Position numbers and translations under genes: made by a program. The notes under the pieces are model-generated. The model had not been told where the DNA came from, ran no database searches, and saw only the letters and a list, made by a program, of their open reading frames with translations. DNA of 64,000 bases from Brumimicrobium glaciale (lineage in GTDB: Bacteria > Bacteroidota > Bacteroidia > Flavobacteriales_D > Crocinitomicaceae): contig NZ_SETE01000001.1 of assembly GCF_004152935.1 (NCBI RefSeq), forward strand, positions 496,001-560,000. The letters are read 5' to 3'. This document shows, one piece after another, positions 1 through 59,142 of this stretch. The stretch's first letter is position 1. Each line of letters starts with the position of its first letter.

Positions 1-3000
1 AATGAAGTGTTGGTCGATTTAACTTCGGCTTTTTTAGCTCCTTGGACTTATGACGTTGAAACGGCGTCAGAATCAACGAATTCTCAAATTGAAGATTGTT
101 GGTCGTCAACACCTAATAATACAACTTCTGCTTACCGTTGGGATATAGAAGGAAACGGTGGGGGAACACCTTCATCAAATACAGGTCCTAATGTTCCTAA
201 TAGTGGTAATACTTATTTCTATACAGAGGCATCTTCTGGTGTTACAGGAGCCGTAGCTGAATTAATTACACCACAAATTGATGTGTCTGGATTAACTACT
301 GCATCATTAAAATTCTATTTTCATATGTATGGTGTAGATATTAGTGAGTTGTCAGTTGGTGTTTCTACTGATATGGGGGCAACTTGGACAAGTGCGCTTA
401 CAATTACAGGTGCACAACAAACTGCAAGTACAGACCCTTGGTTAGTTCAATGGGTTGACTTGAGTGCATACACAGGAGTTCTTCAACTTCGTTTTAAAGC
501 AATTAGAGGAGTAGGTTTTGAAGGTGATATGGCTATTGATGACATTTCTGTTATCGAGGCACCATCTTGTATTCCTCCATCGGCTCTTACGTCAGCACTT
601 ACATCAAGTACTTCAGCTGAGTTAGGTTGGACTCAAAGTGGTTCTGCTACAGTTTGGAATATTCAGTATGGAGCTCCAGGATTTACTATAGGATCAGGTA
701 CTCCTGAAAATGCAGTAACTAACCCTTATAATTTGACAGGTTTAACAACTGGTTCGACTTACGAATATTATGTTCAAGCGGATTGTGGAAGTGCTAATTT
801 AAGTACTTGGACAGGTCCTTTTGAGTTTTCTATAGATTACTGTGAAGTTTCTACAACGAGTTTGTTTGAGTACTTAACTTCAATTACATCAAATGGTGCT
901 GTTTCAAATATTTCATATACTGCAAGTTCATTCCCTGCAGGTTCTTATGCGAATGAGACTGCACAGATATTTGAATCTTATGAAACACAAACTTTCGATA
1001 TTTTGACTAACTATTCATCAGGTATTAATGGAGTAAATGTTTGGGTAGATTGGAATAACGATTTGAACTTTGATGCAACGGAATTATTAGCTTCTGCTAC
1101 TGGTGCGACTCAGCATACTTTATCAGTTACTGTTCCAACAGGTACGCCTCAAGGAAATTATAGAATGAGAGTTCGTGGTCAATGGGGCAGTTCTGCAAAT
1201 CCACCAGCGTGTGGACTTGTTAATTATGGGTCAACTGTAGACTTTACTTTAACTATTACTTCGCCTCCATCTTGTTTGTCACCTACTGCCTTGACAGTTG
1301 CTAATTTAAATTATACAACTGCGGATCTTGGTTGGACTGACGTTTCAACAAATTGGGAAATCGAATATGGTGCACAAGGATTTACTATAGGATCTGGAGC
1401 CTCAGCATTTACAAGTGCAAATCCTTATGCTGTCTCTAATTTAACACCAAATACTAATAATAGTTTCTATGTGAGAGCAATTTGTGCTCCAGGAGATACG
1501 AGTACTTGGGCTGGTCCTTATAATTTTTATACAGGACCTTGTACTCCTTCACCTACTTCAGTAGATGGAATCGGTATTACAAATGTTACAATGGGTACTA
1601 TAAATAATACAACTGGTGCTGAACCAAATAACTATGGTAACTACACAGCTCAGTCAACAAGTGTGCCTGCAGGTACTACGTTGCCAATTGATATTACTTT
1701 GGAAACAGGATACACATACAATTTATTTGCTTGGGTAGACTGGAATGGTGATTTAGATTTTGATGATGCCAACGAAGGGTATTATTTAGGAGAATCTACT
1801 AATGCAAACCCAACAACTTTTAATGCTTCTATCTTAATCCCGGCTGGTGCCGTTTTAGGTAACTATAGTATTAGAATTGGTGGTGCTGATAATGCTTTAG
1901 GTTCTACACTACCTTCTGATCCATGTTATACAGGAGCGTATGCTACATTTGAAGAATATACATTGACAATTACTGCTGCTCCGCCTTGTGCAGATCCATC
2001 AGCGTTAACAGCTTCAAATTTCACTACTAACACAGCTGATTTAGCTTGGACGGAAAATGGAACTGCAACGACATGGAATATTGAATATGGTCCTGCAGGA
2101 TTTGGCCAAGGTACTGGGACTGCATTAGCAGCAGTTACCTCAAATCCTCATACTTTAACAGGATTAATGCCGTGTATGAACTATGATTATTATGTTCAGG
2201 CAGATTGTGGTGGTGGAAATTTAAGTGCTTGGGTAGGTCCATTGGCATTTACAACATTTGCTGCTCCTGCTACTGGAACAGATACTCAAGTTGCTTGTGA
2301 TACATATACTTGGATGGATGGAAACACTTACACTTCATCAAACAATACAGCTACATTTACAATTGTAGGTGGTGGCTCTAGTGCTTGTGGAAATGATTCA
2401 ATTGTAACGTTAGATTTAACAATCAATACTTCTGCAACTGGAACAGATACGCAAGTTGCTTGCGATACATACACTTGGATTGATGGAAACACTTATACGT
2501 CTTCAAACAATACAGCAACACATACAATTATGGGTGGAGCTGCTAATGGATGTGATTCAATTGTAACGTTAGATTTAACAATCAATACTGCTACAATGGG
2601 AACAGATACTCAAGCTGCTTGTGAGACATTCACTTGGATTGATGGAAACACTTATACGTCTTCAAGCAATACAGTAACATTTACAATAGTAGGAGGTAAC
2701 GCAAACGGTTGTGATTCAATCGTAACGTTAGACTTGACGATTGATATGCCAACAAATGCTGGTGATGATGTGATGAGAACATTCTGTATGAATCAACCAT
2801 TAGGTCTTGATACTTTATTGAGCGCTAATGCTGATGCAGGTGGAACGTGGGTAGATCCTTCAGGTAATGCAATTACAGGAACAATGATTACACTTTCTGG
2901 TCAGCCAGATGTGTATATCTATACTTATGTAACGGCTGCTAACGGAGCTTGTCCTGCTGCAACTGCAAGTATTGAAATAACTGTTGACGGAGGTTGTGAT

Positions 3001-3270
3001 TACTTGTCAATCACTGATGAAGCTATGGTTGATATCTCAGTATATCCAAACCCTGCGACTAGTAACTTGACTATTCTTAACCCATCTAATACTTCATCTT
3101 TAAAAGTAGAGATGTTAGATATGAACGGAAGAATCGTACTTGTTGAAAATAAAGCATTGAATAATGCAACAGAAGCTACTTTAGCAATTGATTACCTTGA
3201 AAGAGGAATTTATACGCTACGTATTTATAATACTGAAGGTCAAAAAACTTTCAAGATTGTAAAACAATAA
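1..3270 (+). CDS. T9SS type A sorting domain protein with Fn3, GEVED and tandem repeats (5'-truncated)
   Basis: Large secreted or cell-surface protein whose N-terminus lies outside the window: the frame is open to base 1, and the GTG at 7 is internal by comparison with the fourth paralog, which has the same jelly-roll segment deep inside. Visible order, counted from base 7: MAM-like jelly roll (about 1-185, ending AIDDISVIE), Fn3 (190-275), GEVED (280-420), Fn3 (420-510), GEVED (511-658), Fn3 (659-753), three tandem 51-56 residue Cys/Trp repeats starting TGTDTQ (754-912), a linker, and a Por-secretion tail (1008-1087, DISVYPNPATS...GIYTLRIYN...FKIVKQ). The tail directs export by the type IX system and is usually removed on the cell surface. 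The role is probably adhesion or extracellular matrix, by family only. No enzymatic domain is seen. Confidence 0.9.
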   Translation, partial: NEVLVDLTSAFLAPWTYDVETASESTNSQIEDCWSSTPNNTTSAYRWDIEGNGGGTPSSNTGPNVPNSGNTYFYTEASSGVTGAVAELITPQIDVSGLTTASLKFYFHMYGVDISELSVGVSTDMGATWTSALTITGAQQTASTDPWLVQWVDLSAYTGVLQLRFKAIRGVGFEGDMAIDDISVIEAPSCIPPSALTSALTSSTSAELGWTQSGSATVWNIQYGAPGFTIGSGTPENAVTNPYNLTGLTTGSTYEYYVQADCGSANLSTWTGPFEFSIDYCEVSTTSLFEYLTSITSNGAVSNISYTASSFPAGSYANETAQIFESYETQTFDILTNYSSGINGVNVWVDWNNDLNFDATELLASATGATQHTLSVTVPTGTPQGNYRMRVRGQWGSSANPPACGLVNYGSTVDFTLTITSPPSCLSPTALTVANLNYTTADLGWTDVSTNWEIEYGAQGFTIGSGASAFTSANPYAVSNLTPNTNNSFYVRAICAPGDTSTWAGPYNFYTGPCTPSPTSVDGIGITNVTMGTINNTTGAEPNNYGNYTAQSTSVPAGTTLPIDITLETGYTYNLFAWVDWNGDLDFDDANEGYYLGESTNANPTTFNASILIPAGAVLGNYSIRIGGADNALGSTLPSDPCYTGAYATFEEYTLTITAAPPCADPSALTASNFTTNTADLAWTENGTATTWNIEYGPAGFGQGTGTALAAVTSNPHTLTGLMPCMNYDYYVQADCGGGNLSAWVGPLAFTTFAAPATGTDTQVACDTYTWMDGNTYTSSNNTATFTIVGGGSSACGNDSIVTLDLTINTSATGTDTQVACDTYTWIDGNTYTSSNNTATHTIMGGAANGCDSIVTLDLTINTATMGTDTQAACETFTWIDGNTYTSSSNTVTFTIVGGNANGCDSIVTLDLTIDMPTNAGDDVMRTFCMNQPLGLDTLLSANADAGGTWVDPSGNAITGTMITLSGQPDVYIYTYVTAANGACPAATASIEITVDGGCDYLSITDEAMVDISVYPNPATSNLTILNPSNTSSLKVEMLDMNGRIVLVENKALNNATEATLAIDYLERGIYTLRIYNTEGQKTFKIVKQ

Positions 3271-3521: not shown

Positions 3522-3606
3522 AATTCTTGGTAAGAATTAAAGCTTTCCCCGAGTTATAAATTCAACCTTTGTCATTCATTTCAGAGCAAAGCGACGAGGA
3601 ATCTCT
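3522..3606. repeat. Degenerate repeat unit A (hairpin plus GAGGAATCTCT box)
   Basis: Starts with the palindrome AATTCTTGGTAAGAATT (3522-3538) and ends about 70 bp later with CGACGAGGAATCTCT (3592-3606). A related unit lies 245 bp downstream, with AATTCTTTAGTAAGAATT at 3766-3783 and TCGAGGAATCTCT at 4202-4214, split by the MITE. The GAGGAATCTCT box looks like a dispersed intergenic repeat common in flavobacterial genomes. It is non-coding. Confidence 0.5.
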
Positions 3607-3783
3607 TTTAATTCATATAAGTATAACTGTTTCTAAAACAAATGGATAACTAAAAAAAAAGTATATTTGATTAAGTAAATTGAGTTTACTGGTAACTTTA
3701 ATTGGAATCAATTAAATTAAACTACCCGCTAGTAGTGAATTTTGAAAAAGCTTCCTAAGCATTTCAATTCTTTAGTAAGAATT

Positions 3784-4158
3784 GGTTCTACCACTATTTT
3801 AATGGGAACTCATACAATATGGATTCTAAAATATTTATCAATAATTATTCATTCTTCAAATAACAAGCTCCAGAGGAGCGACATATTAATAGCCAAGTAC
3901 ACTAGTGTACTTGGTTATTAATAAACAAAAAACAAACTCACCGAAATCGGCATAATTGCATGCAATTATACCGATTTCGGTGAGTTTGTATAGAGATGGA
4001 TTACATTCATATCTACTAATATGTCGTTCCTCTGGAACTGAAAATATTAAACCCATGTATTGCAGTTATTTGAACGTAAAAATCGAAACATCTATATAAA
4101 ACCAGTTTTGATAAAATGGAAAGGTTAATGGTTTAACCATTAAAATAGTGGTAGAACC
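3784..4158. mobile_element. MITE copy 1 (375 bp, terminal inverted repeats, 8-bp TSD)
   Basis: Non-coding element with 22-bp perfect terminal inverted repeats beginning GGTTCTACCACTATTTTAAT and ending with their reverse complement. It is flanked by the direct repeat TAAGAATT (3776-3783 and 4159-4166), an 8-bp target-site duplication. A second 375-bp copy at 58649-59023 differs at only two positions by eye (3983 and 4060) and has a different 8-bp duplication. Internal symmetry: paired 19-mers 3870-3888 and 4017-4035, palindromes at 3893-3914, 3933-3988 and 4126-4142. No transposase is encoded, so it must move in trans. An 8-bp duplication is compatible with families such as ISL3, IS66 or IS1595, but the parent is not identified here. 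Confidence 0.93.
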
Positions 4159-4309
4159 TAAGAATTAAAACTTAACTTCTGTCACCCTACAAAACACTGT
4201 GTCGAGGAATCTCTCCTTTTTTTTATTATACGTAATATCAGTTTTGTCAATTACACCTATTTATAAAAATGATTCATAAGCTTTAACTAGTTGAAAATTA
4301 AGTGTGCCT

Positions 4310-4323
4310 ATTAAAATAGTGGT
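4310..4323. repeat. Solo MITE-end-like sequence
   Basis: ATTAAAATAGTGGT matches 14 consecutive bases of the MITE right terminal repeat, and the flanking bases (TTGAAAC against AGAACC) are degenerate. It lies 152 bp beyond the right end of MITE copy 1. It may be a relic end of another copy or a chance match. No corresponding left end was found nearby. Confidence 0.4.
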
Positions 4324-4405
4324 TGAAACAAGAAAAGAGATGGGTTGGTATATATTTTTAAAAATAAAACATAATAAATTTAACTTTTATTTATGAATAA
4401 CAATT

Positions 4406-4421
4406 ATTTGTTTTATATTTG
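4406..4421 (+). promoter_or_regulatory. Promoter box of second T9SS gene
   Basis: Contains TATATTTG (4414-4421), a match to the Bacteroidota -7 consensus TAnnTTTG, 30 bp before the ATG. The 16-mer ATTTGTTTTATATTTG is repeated exactly at 7564-7579 upstream of the third T9SS gene, which supports a shared functional promoter. A -33 TTTG at standard spacing is not evident. Confidence 0.6.
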
Positions 4422-4451
4422 ATAATTAACACAGAACTAAAAATTAAACTT

Positions 4452-7196
4452 ATGAAAACATTTTTACTAAAAGGTATGCTTTTTATAGCTGCTTTTGCAT
4501 TTGGCTCAAATCTAAATGCTCAAAGCTATTGTGCCTATACAACGACTAATACAGGAAACTATATTACCTCCTTCTCCACTACTGGAGGGTTTCCTGATAT
4601 TGTAAACAACAATACCGGACAAGGTCCTAATGGATATTCTGATTATACAACAATGATTGTTGGAGGTTATGAAACCCAGCAAATTACCTTTACAATTACT
4701 GCAACTGGTGGTACTTATGGTTATTCTGTTTTCATAGACTGGGATAATGACTTTGCTTTTAGTGCCGCTGAAAAAGTTTATGGTACATCAAGCTATTCTC
4801 CTACACCTAATACAGCTTCATTTATAGTTCCTACGGGTCAATCTTTAGGGAACTATAGAATGCGTGTTATTGCAGATTGGTTGAATGGTGCTCCTGGCCC
4901 TTGTACAGGTTCTTATGCTGAAGCAGAAGATTATACATTTCAGGTGATTACACCGCCAACTTGTTTGCCTGCTCAAAACTTAAACGTAAGTGGTGTAACT
5001 GCAACTACGCTCAATTTTGGTTGGACTGAGATAAATACAGCTACTGAATGGCAAGTAGAGTATGGACCAATTGGTTTTGTTCAAGGGAGTGCTGCAGGGA
5101 ATCTTCAATCAAATGTGGTTGCAAATCCATATACTGCTACGATCGTTCAAGGAAATGAATATGATTTCTATGTACGTTCAGTATGTTCTATAGGAGATAC
5201 AAGTGTATGGGCTGGACCATATGAATTTAAATATTGTGAGGTTTCTGCACAAAATACTTTCTATTACACAAGTGCTATTACTTCAACTAACGCTTTAGTG
5301 AACGTTAATTATTCTGCAGCTGGAATCCCACCTGGTTCTTACGCTAATGAAACAGCGCAAACGTTTGAATCATTTGAATCACAGTCTTTTAATGTTAATA
5401 CAACTTATTCTTCGGCATCAAACTATACGAATGTTTGGGTAGATTGGAATAGAGATATGGTTTTCGATGCATCTGAATTGATGGCTGGATCAGGAAGTGC
5501 AATTGCTTCTCAATCATTATCTATTGTTGTTCCTGCTGCTACTCCTCAAGGCGATTACAGAATGAGAGTTCGAAGTGATTATGGAAATACTTCCAATCCA
5601 TCAGCTTGTGGAAGTGCTGCTTATGGTTCTACTGTCGATTTTAATTTAACTATTGTTGCTCCACCTTCATGTTTACCAGTAAATAATATTATTGTAAACA
5701 ACGTTTCAGAAACAACTGTAGCTCTAGGATGGACATCAAGTGGTACAGCTACAACTTGGAATATCGAATATGGTCCAGCTGGTTTTGCCCCAGGAACAGG
5801 GTTTCCTTTAACGGCAACAACTAATCCTTTTACAATAACTAATTTAACTGGAAATACTAATTATGATTTCTATATTCAAGCAGATTGTGGTGGTGGTGAT
5901 CTAAGTTATTGGTCTTCAGTATTTGGTCCTGTCGTTACAGATTGTGGCCCTTACCTTGCAAACGGTTTGTGTGAAGGATTTGACATTAACTTATCTTCTA
6001 CAATTGGATGTTGGAGAGTAAGAGATGAAAATAATGATGGAGATGCATGGGGTATGAGTACAAGTATACCAAATACTGGTGCTTATTCTGCAGTTTTCTA
6101 TTCTGATTTGAACGCAGGTAATAACGATGATTATTTAATTTCTCCTCAATTGGTGATGACTGGAATTGAAGCAATGAAGTTTTCTTTTAGAGTGCAAAGT
6201 GCTAATGAGCCAAATGACTTCCAAGTATTACTTTCTACTACAGGAACTAACGTAGCTGACTTTACAGATACAATTATGGATCTTGCAGAGTATGCGAACA
6301 TTGTTTATCAAGACACAGTTATTGATTTAACTTCTTACACTGGTCCAGTTTATATTGCATTTCATATTCCTCCTGGAGGAGTAGATGGATGGAACTTATT
6401 TATCGATGATGTGTGTTTTGGAGAATGTATTCCAACGCCTGGTCAAGATGGATCTGTTGATGTTTGTGTTTTAGAAAATTCTGTTGATTTATCAGATAAC
6501 ATTGTTTCGCATAACAATTCTTACGGACGTTGGGAATTTCCTGCAAACCAAGCATTAATTGTAGATGATACTATGTTTAATGTAGGTATGATGGCTGAAG
6601 GTTCTCATGAGGTAATGTATATTGTTGAAGGTCTTTGTCAAGAAGATACAACAATTGCTACAATCAATGTCTATAAAGCTTCTTCTGCTGGTATTGACGG
6701 TGTGATGGAAGTTTGTAAAAACACTCCATCAAACTTGTTCTCAGCATTGTCTGGTAATATAGATTTCGGAGGAACTTGGTATGATCCAGCAAACGTTGCT
6801 TTGCCAAATTCTCAACCAAATGCGCCAAGTATCCCAGGTATGTATCAATATACTTATATCACAAATAACGGACATTGTCCAGGTGATACATCTATTGTTA
6901 CAATTACAGTTGACGGAGGATGTGATAATTTATCACTAGGTAATGATATCTTAACTGATGTCTCTGTTTACCCGAACCCAGCAACAAGCATTCTTACAAT
7001 TGTTAATCCTTCTAACGCAACTTCTTTAAAAGTTGAAATGTTAGATATGAATGGTAGAATTGTTCTAGTAGAAAACAAAGCATTGAATAATGCTTCAGAA
7101 GCTACCTTGACAATTGATTATTTAGAAAAAGGAATCTATACTTTAAGAGTATTCAACACTGAAGGTCAAAAAACTTTCAAGGTTGTAAAACAATAA
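4452..7196 (+). CDS. T9SS type A sorting domain protein (GEVED, Fn3, choice-of-anchor)
   Basis: About 914 residues. The ATG at 4452 is preferred over an upstream in-frame TTG because it opens a clean signal peptide (MKTFLLKGMLF...NLNAQ, cleavage near residue 24). Domains: GEVED (about 25-165), Fn3 (170-262), second GEVED (263-400), Fn3 (405-490), a cleaved-adhesin/choice-of-anchor jelly roll (about 500-660, from CEGFDINL to FIDDVCFGEC), a linker with paired Cys, and a Por-secretion tail (about 835-914) nearly identical to that of the upstream paralog. Exported by Sec, then type IX. It probably binds surfaces or glycans. It sits alone between its own promoter box and terminator, so it is likely monocistronic. 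Confidence 0.92.
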   Translation: MKTFLLKGMLFIAAFAFGSNLNAQSYCAYTTTNTGNYITSFSTTGGFPDIVNNNTGQGPNGYSDYTTMIVGGYETQQITFTITATGGTYGYSVFIDWDNDFAFSAAEKVYGTSSYSPTPNTASFIVPTGQSLGNYRMRVIADWLNGAPGPCTGSYAEAEDYTFQVITPPTCLPAQNLNVSGVTATTLNFGWTEINTATEWQVEYGPIGFVQGSAAGNLQSNVVANPYTATIVQGNEYDFYVRSVCSIGDTSVWAGPYEFKYCEVSAQNTFYYTSAITSTNALVNVNYSAAGIPPGSYANETAQTFESFESQSFNVNTTYSSASNYTNVWVDWNRDMVFDASELMAGSGSAIASQSLSIVVPAATPQGDYRMRVRSDYGNTSNPSACGSAAYGSTVDFNLTIVAPPSCLPVNNIIVNNVSETTVALGWTSSGTATTWNIEYGPAGFAPGTGFPLTATTNPFTITNLTGNTNYDFYIQADCGGGDLSYWSSVFGPVVTDCGPYLANGLCEGFDINLSSTIGCWRVRDENNDGDAWGMSTSIPNTGAYSAVFYSDLNAGNNDDYLISPQLVMTGIEAMKFSFRVQSANEPNDFQVLLSTTGTNVADFTDTIMDLAEYANIVYQDTVIDLTSYTGPVYIAFHIPPGGVDGWNLFIDDVCFGECIPTPGQDGSVDVCVLENSVDLSDNIVSHNNSYGRWEFPANQALIVDDTMFNVGMMAEGSHEVMYIVEGLCQEDTTIATINVYKASSAGIDGVMEVCKNTPSNLFSALSGNIDFGGTWYDPANVALPNSQPNAPSIPGMYQYTYITNNGHCPGDTSIVTITVDGGCDNLSLGNDILTDVSVYPNPATSILTIVNPSNATSLKVEMLDMNGRIVLVENKALNNASEATLTIDYLEKGIYTLRVFNTEGQKTFKVVKQ

Positions 7197-57905: not shown

Positions 57906-58000
57906 TTAAACGGCCTTAACTTATTGGTCTCACAAATATTAAAACAATGCACTTTAGGGCATCTAGCTTGAGCTTCTAAAGAGTTTTGTGTCCAACAATA

Positions 58001-58051
58001 AAATTTAGATGTTAGGCATTGACAAAAGTCTAACATCTAACATCTAAATTT
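58001..58051 (+). terminator. Hairpin after the RsmI-like gene
   Basis: 15-bp arms AAATTTAGATGTTAG (58001-58015) and CTAACATCTAAATTT (58037-58051) with a short internal duplication, about 100 nt after the stop. T-rich just after; plausible terminator. Confidence 0.55.
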
Positions 58052-58136
58052 TTAGATTGTTATAGAATTTTAATTTCATTTGGACCTATGGTGCTTTTAG
58101 TCCATAGTGCTTCAGTTTAAAACTACACATTTAGTC

Positions 58137-58559: not shown

Positions 58560-59142
58560 GAAAGTAAAACGACGGATAGCGTAATTTATCAAATGGTTGG
58601 AAAAGAAAATTTACGAGGGTTTTCAATTATCTTGTCTATCAATTTTATGGTTCTACCACTATTTTAATGGGAACTCATACAATATGGATTCTAAAATATT
58701 TATCAATAATTATTCATTCTTCAAATAACAAGCTCCAGAGGAGCGACATATTAATAGCCAAGTACACTAGTGTACTTGGTTATTAATAAACAAAAAACAA
58801 ACTCACCGAAATCGGCATAATTGCATGCAATTATACCGATTTCGGTGGGTTTGTATAGAGATGGATTACATTCATATCTACTAATATGTCGTTCCTCTGG
58901 AACTGAAAATATTAAACCCATGTACTGCAGTTATTTGAACGTAAAAATCGAAACATCTATATAAAACCAGTTTTGATAAAATGGAAAGGTTAATGGTTTA
59001 ACCATTAAAATAGTGGTAGAACCAATTTTATAAAAGAGCTAAGTCTATTGTTAAGTTTTCCGATAGAATTTGAATAACATTTCAGGAAATCCAACAAGAA
59101 AGGTCTACATTTTCATAGCTTTATATGTTAGACCAAAAACTT
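58560..59142. other. Intergenic, 583 bp, mostly MITE copy 2
   Basis: No gene. Holds the second MITE with its target-site duplication; the short flanks have no visible feature. Confidence 0.7.
58649..59023. mobile_element. MITE copy 2 (375 bp, terminal inverted repeats, 8-bp TSD)
   Basis: Same element as 3784-4158, in the same orientation, flanked by the direct repeat AATTTTAT (58641-58648 and 59024-59031), a target duplication different from that of copy 1. By eye 373 of 375 bases agree; the differences are at 58848 and 58925. All internal palindromes are kept, one with a G-T pair where copy 1 has A-T. It lies between a membrane-protein gene and a lipoprotein gene. Confidence 0.93.

Follow-up and report, generated by a model that had tools for sequence, protein, structure and literature searches.

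The 375-bp repeat that occurs twice in the analysed stretch of the Brumimicrobium glaciale genome is, judged from its sequence, an ISL3-type MITE, and it very probably carries a REPIN-like core that was captured as a passenger, its probable mover being an ISL3 transposase since lost or only briefly present. The window, i.e., the whole 64,000-nucleotide stretch that was analysed, corresponds to C1:496001-560000 of a 4.27-Mb draft genome (G000) of 12 contigs, in which one copy of the element is split at contig ends. The two window copies, their terminal inverted repeats (TIRs) and their target site duplications (TSDs) are as follows.

3776..3783, no strand: target duplication, copy 1, left, TAAGAATT
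3784..4158, + strand: MITE copy 1, 375 bp
3784..3805, + strand: left TIR, copy 1, ISL3-type end GGTTCTACCACTATTTTAATGG
4137..4158, - strand: right TIR, copy 1, perfect inverted match to the left TIR
4159..4166, no strand: target duplication, copy 1, right, TAAGAATT
58641..58648, no strand: target duplication, copy 2, left, AATTTTAT
58649..59023, + strand: MITE copy 2, 375 bp
58649..58670, + strand: left TIR, copy 2
59002..59023, - strand: right TIR, copy 2
59024..59031, no strand: target duplication, copy 2, right, AATTTTAT

The two copies are the same at 373 of 375 bases, the mismatches being at element positions 200 and 277, and the match of copy 2 to copy 1 in the genome DNA search (E 1.3e-192) excludes chance likeness. 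The 22-bp TIR is perfect in both copies, and the duplications are exact but different, TAAGAATT for copy 1 and AATTTTAT for copy 2. No ORF of at least 80 aa, the shortest length in the ORF list, lies inside either copy. The first-pass annotation, which had described two nearly identical 375-bp copies with perfect 22-bp TIRs, different 8-bp duplications and no coding capacity, is borne out on all of these points. Its identification of the element as a MITE also stands, given the TIRs, the 8-bp TSDs, the several copies, the constant termini and the complete insertion sequences (ISs) with similar ends found elsewhere; in its description of the element, however, the REP doublet of the interior had been overlooked. 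Each window copy sits between two + strand ORFs. The neighbours of copy 1 (window 7-3270 and 4419-7196) encode two large proteins with GEVED, fn3 and Por_Secre_tail domains, and those of copy 2 are two ORFs, one with a sub-cut-off CopD match and one with no Pfam match. An Rfam scan of the window yielded two tRNAs only at the gathering score, with no match for the element, and a search of phages and plasmids with the element gave no match at E 1e-5. A further dispersed repeat, about 200 bp long, lies at 57918-58117 of the window; it has more than 20 own-genome matches at 68-83% identity and occurs in congeners as well.

A whole-genome search, proposed earlier as a way of counting copies, added two full copies (C2:468801-469175 and C7:147307), a deletion copy of 341 bp (C3:42792-43132) and two half copies at the C8 end and the C7 start. 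The C2, C7 and C3 copies start and stop at the bases corresponding to the window-copy termini, in agreement with the termini first drawn from the window pair. The perfect 22-bp TIR, in contrast, is peculiar to the two window copies among the own-genome copies with a right end: this end is GGTTCTACCCTGATTTTAAT in the C2, C7 and C3 copies and in the C7-start half, and the window copies share AGT at 364-366, where the other copies with a right end differ at 3 bases. Copy 1 differs from the C2 copy at 16/375 positions and from C7:147307 at 21/375, and the latter two differ from each other at 11. The C3 copy and the C8/C7 halves are identical to the C2 copy over their overlaps (0/341, 0/126 and 0/127 differences). 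The C3 copy is the C2 sequence minus an internal 34 bp, a deletion that looks like slippage between short repeats.

How recently the element moved is harder to read from this identity. The duplication of the C3 copy has one mismatch and that of C7:147307 has two in 8. The C2 copy is flanked by ATAATTGT and TCTTTATT and the C8/C7 halves, reversed, by TCTTTATT and ATAATTGT, and TSDs for these two appear only when a flank swap is allowed. The swapped 8-mers are the product of recombination between copies or of misassembly; conversion may thus add to the identity of the copies, which is no clean clock. Accordingly, it could be argued that the insertions are old and that gene conversion or homologous recombination has homogenised them, in which case near-identity would not equal recent movement. 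The exchanged flanks of the C2 copy and the C8/C7 halves fit this idea, as does the right end (AGT, 364-366) shared by the window copies and absent from the others. It is nevertheless rather unlikely, since both window copies retain exact 8-bp duplications; the C2 and C3 copies and the C8/C7 halves occupy separate sites and yet are identical over their overlaps; and C7:147307, with its 11 differences from the C2 copy, has a duplication mismatched at 2 of 8 bases, as if divergence tracked age. Recent mobility, as claimed initially, is therefore plausible from identical copies at separate sites but not proved, the flank swap permitting conversion.

A single 8-bp target was predicted for the corresponding empty sites. 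When the flanks of copy 1 were joined, they aligned over the junction to C2 (L049:1279-1330; 42/52 bases) and to C4 (L051; 38/46 bases), each with a single TAAGAATT, and also to C1 (L052; 39/50), where the site itself is different. Only about 7 aligned bases lie to the right of the junction in these alignments, and a further copy of the same short palindromic repeat, with one TAAGAATT, occurs near 3530 in the left flank of copy 1, so the evidence for an empty site is modest; the short repeats on C2 and C4 may be empty-site equivalents of copy 1. For copy 2, the prediction found no such backing, the flank search having yielded no clean orthologous empty site. Brumimicrobium oceani (G002), which alone has both flanks of copy 2, was considered and set aside because their order is swapped.

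The right flank of copy 1 is informative in another respect. Its alignment to the C2 element (121/175) extends to 4329, at which point that element ends, and this suggests that copy 1 was probably inserted into an older relative of the same superfamily. The left end of this relative was looked for in the flanks of copy 1 and was not found.

4310..4329, - strand: degenerate right end of an older element of the same superfamily, GTTTCAACCACTATTTTAAT; homology from about 3491

The assignment to ISL3 derives from complete elements in other genomes. The 24-bp ends of the MITE share 17-21 of 24 bases with the ends of complete ISL3 ISs, which occur in Algoriphagus and other Bacteroidota and have 8-bp duplications; agreement reaches 21/24 with the ends that lie 5' of the ISL3 transposase frames of L261, L169 and L103. 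Among three end-adjacent frames scanned, that of L161 matched DDE_Tnp_ISL3 (PF01610) at 3.2e-42, that of L183 had the ISL3 HTH domain above its cut-off, and that of L160 had a zinc ribbon only, below its cut-off. A tblastn search with the L161 frame detected relatives in further loci, and PF01610 is present in 11 of the 15 genomes reached through loci. Eight elements of 1272-1283 bp have both ends around a transposase frame. Their TSDs are exact in L261, L270 and L208, have one mismatch in L277 and two in L262, and are lacking in L260, L283 and L169. The frame of L261 contains an internal TAG, and those of L270, L208 and L169 are open over 409-414 codons. Within the family of the host, Lishizhenia (L103) has a matching end and an ISL3 fragment. 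Thus, the search for a full-length IS with the same ends succeeded in other genomes, with 17-21/24 bases rather than perfect identity, and these similar ends together with the 8-bp duplications of the 1272-1283-bp ISs indicate an ISL3-type MITE.

PF01610, the only transposase profile run on the 12-contig draft of the host, gave no match there. It matched in 48 of 240 family genomes (44 over the cut-off) and in three of nine congeners; neither in these congeners nor in the host was an ISL3 element with MITE-like ends found. A search of the congeneric loci L232 and L242 for pairs starting GG gave no such end pair; L232 has one lone GGTTCTACC, and an end pair in L242 looked like chance and was rejected as a parent end. 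The ISL3 loci L231, L233 and L244 of the family were also rejected as parents, their end pairs being of other types. The expectation of a transposase elsewhere that recognises these ends thus holds as to its kind (ISL3), but the own genome gave no PF01610 match. The element looks orphaned, and since the transposase was not seen in the genome, it is probably immobile at present unless an ISL3 transposase enters. The element might instead be moved by a still-resident DDE transposase from a different family, given that PF01610 is the only transposase profile tested in the own genome and that some non-ISL3 IS families likewise give 8-bp duplications. The agreement of the ends with ISL3 ISs over 17-21/24 bases and the equal duplication length make such a resident mover decidedly improbable.

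Ends of this type are not confined to the 375-bp family. Six more elements in the own genome were found to have such ends and an exact TSD:

C2:777134, 235 bp, element with such ends and exact TSD
C10:103309, 415 bp, element with such ends and exact TSD
C1:609895, 313 bp, element with such ends and exact TSD
C2:849449, 310 bp, element with such ends and exact TSD
C4:233473, 324 bp, element with such ends and exact TSD
C2:162059, 400 bp, element with such ends and exact TSD

At C6:205508, both ends are present and the TSD is absent. Five own-genome end sites were traced for a partner; one gave a partner with a duplication and four did not. Sites of GGTTGTACCGATGATTTAACTGT on C4 were rejected as ends, one lying inside an ORF and the others in the same context. 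With up to one mismatch, GGTTCTACCMYKAWTTTARTGG was detected in 9 of 240 family genomes, the own genome included, and its reversed control in none among the genomes listed. When the element itself was used in a DNA search of 58 relatives and the own genome, three relatives matched, over short stretches only: G023 (REP region), G004 (left end, 1-47) and G050 (positions 32-64). A collection of species genomes contained at least 110 stretches with the end pattern (L119-L228). Among the matches listed, these are mostly from Bacteroidota or Chlorobiota by title, the exceptions being L189 (Gracilibacteria), L198 (Balneolaceae) and L216 (Anaerolineaceae). An end pair with an exact 8-bp TSD was observed, among the matches listed, in 25 of 80 stretches (L119-L198; shuffles 0/80), loci that are not independent since 11 of the 25 come from the MAG BB17 and four from the MAG Dive96_bin1.168, and in 8 of 30 (L199-L228). 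Of the 33 TSD-bearing pairs among the matches listed, 32 span 149-365 bp and one (L208) is the 1274-bp IS.

The interior of the element is of another kind. Its central 177 bp consist of two REP palindromes in inverted orientation that enclose internal hairpins, the borders of this core having been chosen from the alignment.

3866..4042, + strand: REP-doublet (REPIN-like) core with internal hairpins, copy 1; 168.8 bits, a score not independent of the covariance model, this core being one of the 18 rows that built it
3869..3892, + strand: REP, copy 1, 0 mismatches; identical to the REPs beside the C4 Y1 gene
4013..4036, - strand: inverted partner REP, copy 1, 1 mismatch
58731..58907, + strand: REP-doublet core, copy 2; 167.7 bits, likewise not independent, this core also being among the 18 rows
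58734..58757, + strand: REP, copy 2, 0 mismatches
58878..58901, - strand: inverted partner REP, copy 2, 1 mismatch

The fold of the element strand was computed at -146.8 kcal/mol, compared with -62.6 for 100 shuffles (z -15.4). In the alignment of 18 cores, 98.8% of cells pair (93.5 in shuffles; 0/500 shuffles reach this value), and slid controls give 32-50% pairing. Both sides change in 14 of 54 pairs, against 8.0 in shuffles (0/500 reach), although many of the changes split the two MITE families and so represent few events, and arm-to-arm conversion could keep pairs too. Pair types numbered 28, against 28.2 in shuffles, and this was the one of five measures without signal. This covariation shows a kept fold, not its use.

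Searched with up to three mismatches, the REP pattern has 40 matches in the own genome and none in the reversed control. Twenty of them lie at C4:283800-285896, 11 in the 375-bp family and seven in a second MITE family, and the remaining two are in a core without ISL3 ends and at C4:295184; all 12 mismatch-free matches belong to the C4 locus or the 375-bp family. The second family was examined at 32 distinct own-genome loci (L382 and L383 being the same loci as L080 and L082), and both outer ends were found in 27, with a duplication that is exact in 15, has one mismatch in seven and has four or more in five. No end pair was found in L058 and L076, which have single ends, or in L378, L379 and L384. 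Members are mostly about 523 bp long (e.g., L072:509-1031), and in many of them an inner GGTTCTACT-ended element with a REP core is nested at a constant AAATTAAT/AAATTAAC site.

The core also occurs free of these ends. In the own genome, L378 (150 bits), L379 (148 bits) and L384 (143 bits) are full-length cores without an ISL3 end pair, L379 having weak, unpaired end-like matches. The covariance model trained on the 18 own-genome cores matched at E <=0.001 in 11 of 240 family genomes, the own genome included, under strict filters and with at most 10 candidates scored per genome among the genomes listed. Among 15 such loci read in other genomes, L348 alone showed GGTTCTAC-type ends, which are adjacent to the core rather than enclosing it. 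Compared with second-family ends, 13 of these 15 loci yielded one end adjoining the core (L342) and end pairs overlapping the core match (L345 and L357). A cluster of REP-doublet cores, several of them about 0.5 kb apart, lies at G001:C1:217261-224012 of a congener (L343, L361, L364), and no GGTTCTAC-type ends were seen when these three loci were read for them. As copies occur both free of ISL3 ends and within MITEs, the core looks like a module of its own.

Identical 24-mers of one REP lie beside a gene for a Y1 (RAYT-like) transposase. The gene at C4:284330-284779 encodes 149 aa (Y1_Tnp, E 1.9e-26), carries the subclass 1.2 motif, and has on both sides REP 24-mers identical to one of the two REPs of the MITE core, within the direct array of 20 REP matches (<=3 mismatches) at C4:283800-285896 (L054). 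A second Y1 gene, at C3:346845, is 57% identical and is flanked by weak core-like matches, with E 7e-5 on one side and 4e-5 on the other. The survey was extended to 33 Y1 loci, namely 30 homologous loci (the C4 gene among them) and three own-genome paralogues, and the motif Y---Q--HH was present in 31, the assignment to subclass 1.2 being from the motif alone. At least three exact stem-loop copies were found in 14 of the 31 motif-bearing loci, compared with 0/30 shuffled and 0/35 other loci, a rough control composed of ISL3 and end-pattern loci that partly overlap (L042/L091) and include one, L040, overlapping the Y1 locus L319. L308 and L328 have no readable ORF and were counted outside the motif group; one of the two has repeats.

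The inverted REP pair in the core, with one REP identical to those of the Y1 locus, raises the possibility that the resident Y1 (RAYT-like) enzyme moves the whole element as a REPIN. The mobile unit, however, ends at ISL3-type TIRs, which lie 85 and 122 bp outside the REPs, and 8 bp of target are duplicated at these TIRs, which disfavours Y1 movement. Single-strand Y1 transposition is not known to produce target duplications of this sort. Movement of the whole element by the Y1 enzyme is thus highly improbable. Most likely, the element was moved by an ISL3 transposase acting in trans, with the REP doublet riding along; with its REP-doublet interior and with core copies that occur without ISL3 ends, it looks like a chimera of a REPIN-like core on ISL3 ends. 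In the proposed mechanism, a REPIN-like unit would have become enclosed by ISL3 ends and then travelled with them as a passenger. An ISL3 DDE transposase would recognise the GGTTCTACC... ends of the MITE in trans and insert it into a new AT-rich site, giving rise to the 8-bp duplication. This transposase may since have been lost, or may have been present only briefly. A more specific version, which could equally well prove right or wrong, is that the captured unit belonged to a Y1 enzyme with the subclass 1.2 motif; two chemistries (single-strand Y1 and double-strand DDE) could then spread one repeat, and such Y1 genes would be true RAYTs with REPs of their own, contrary to the published table.

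What do these elements add? A MITE family found in many Bacteroidota is now tied to a named transposase family, and its copies lie in a genome in which no matching transposase turned up, with one repeat class riding inside another. The Y1 loci offer a test case for whether subclass 1.2-type Y1 enzymes act on REPs. No description of an ISL3/REP hybrid was found among the papers listed from the literature searched, in which subscription journals are thinly covered. This hybrid seems new, as do the REP arrays beside Y1 genes with a subclass motif that is tabulated without REPs in PMC6006769.

Three known systems bear comparison. MITEs of the ISL3 family are known, for example the ISMac21-related MITE of Methanosarcina acetivorans, for which the table row gives 179 bp, 6 copies, 22-bp inverted repeats and 7-bp direct repeats (PMC3852290). 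Both it and the present element are short and non-coding, with inverted ends related to those of an ISL3 IS; unlike in that entry, the element here has no PF01610 match in its host, a REP-doublet interior, 8-bp duplications and, in copies outside the window pair, unequal ends (PMC3852290). With REPIN/RAYT systems, the present element shares an inverted REP pair forming hairpins and a REP beside a Y1 gene, whereas here the REP pair lies inside DDE-type ends and the doublet encloses further hairpins (PMC3116915, PMC6006769, PMC3733652). A further difference is the motif of the Y1 gene, Y---Q--HH: it marks TnpAY1 subclass 1.2, a group entered with REP 'no' in the table of that classification (PMC6006769). 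Finally, BrickBuilt of Porphyromonas gingivalis is likewise a Bacteroidota MITE with another type of repeat inside, but its cargo is a minisatellite and its duplication length varies between copies (PMC4596501).
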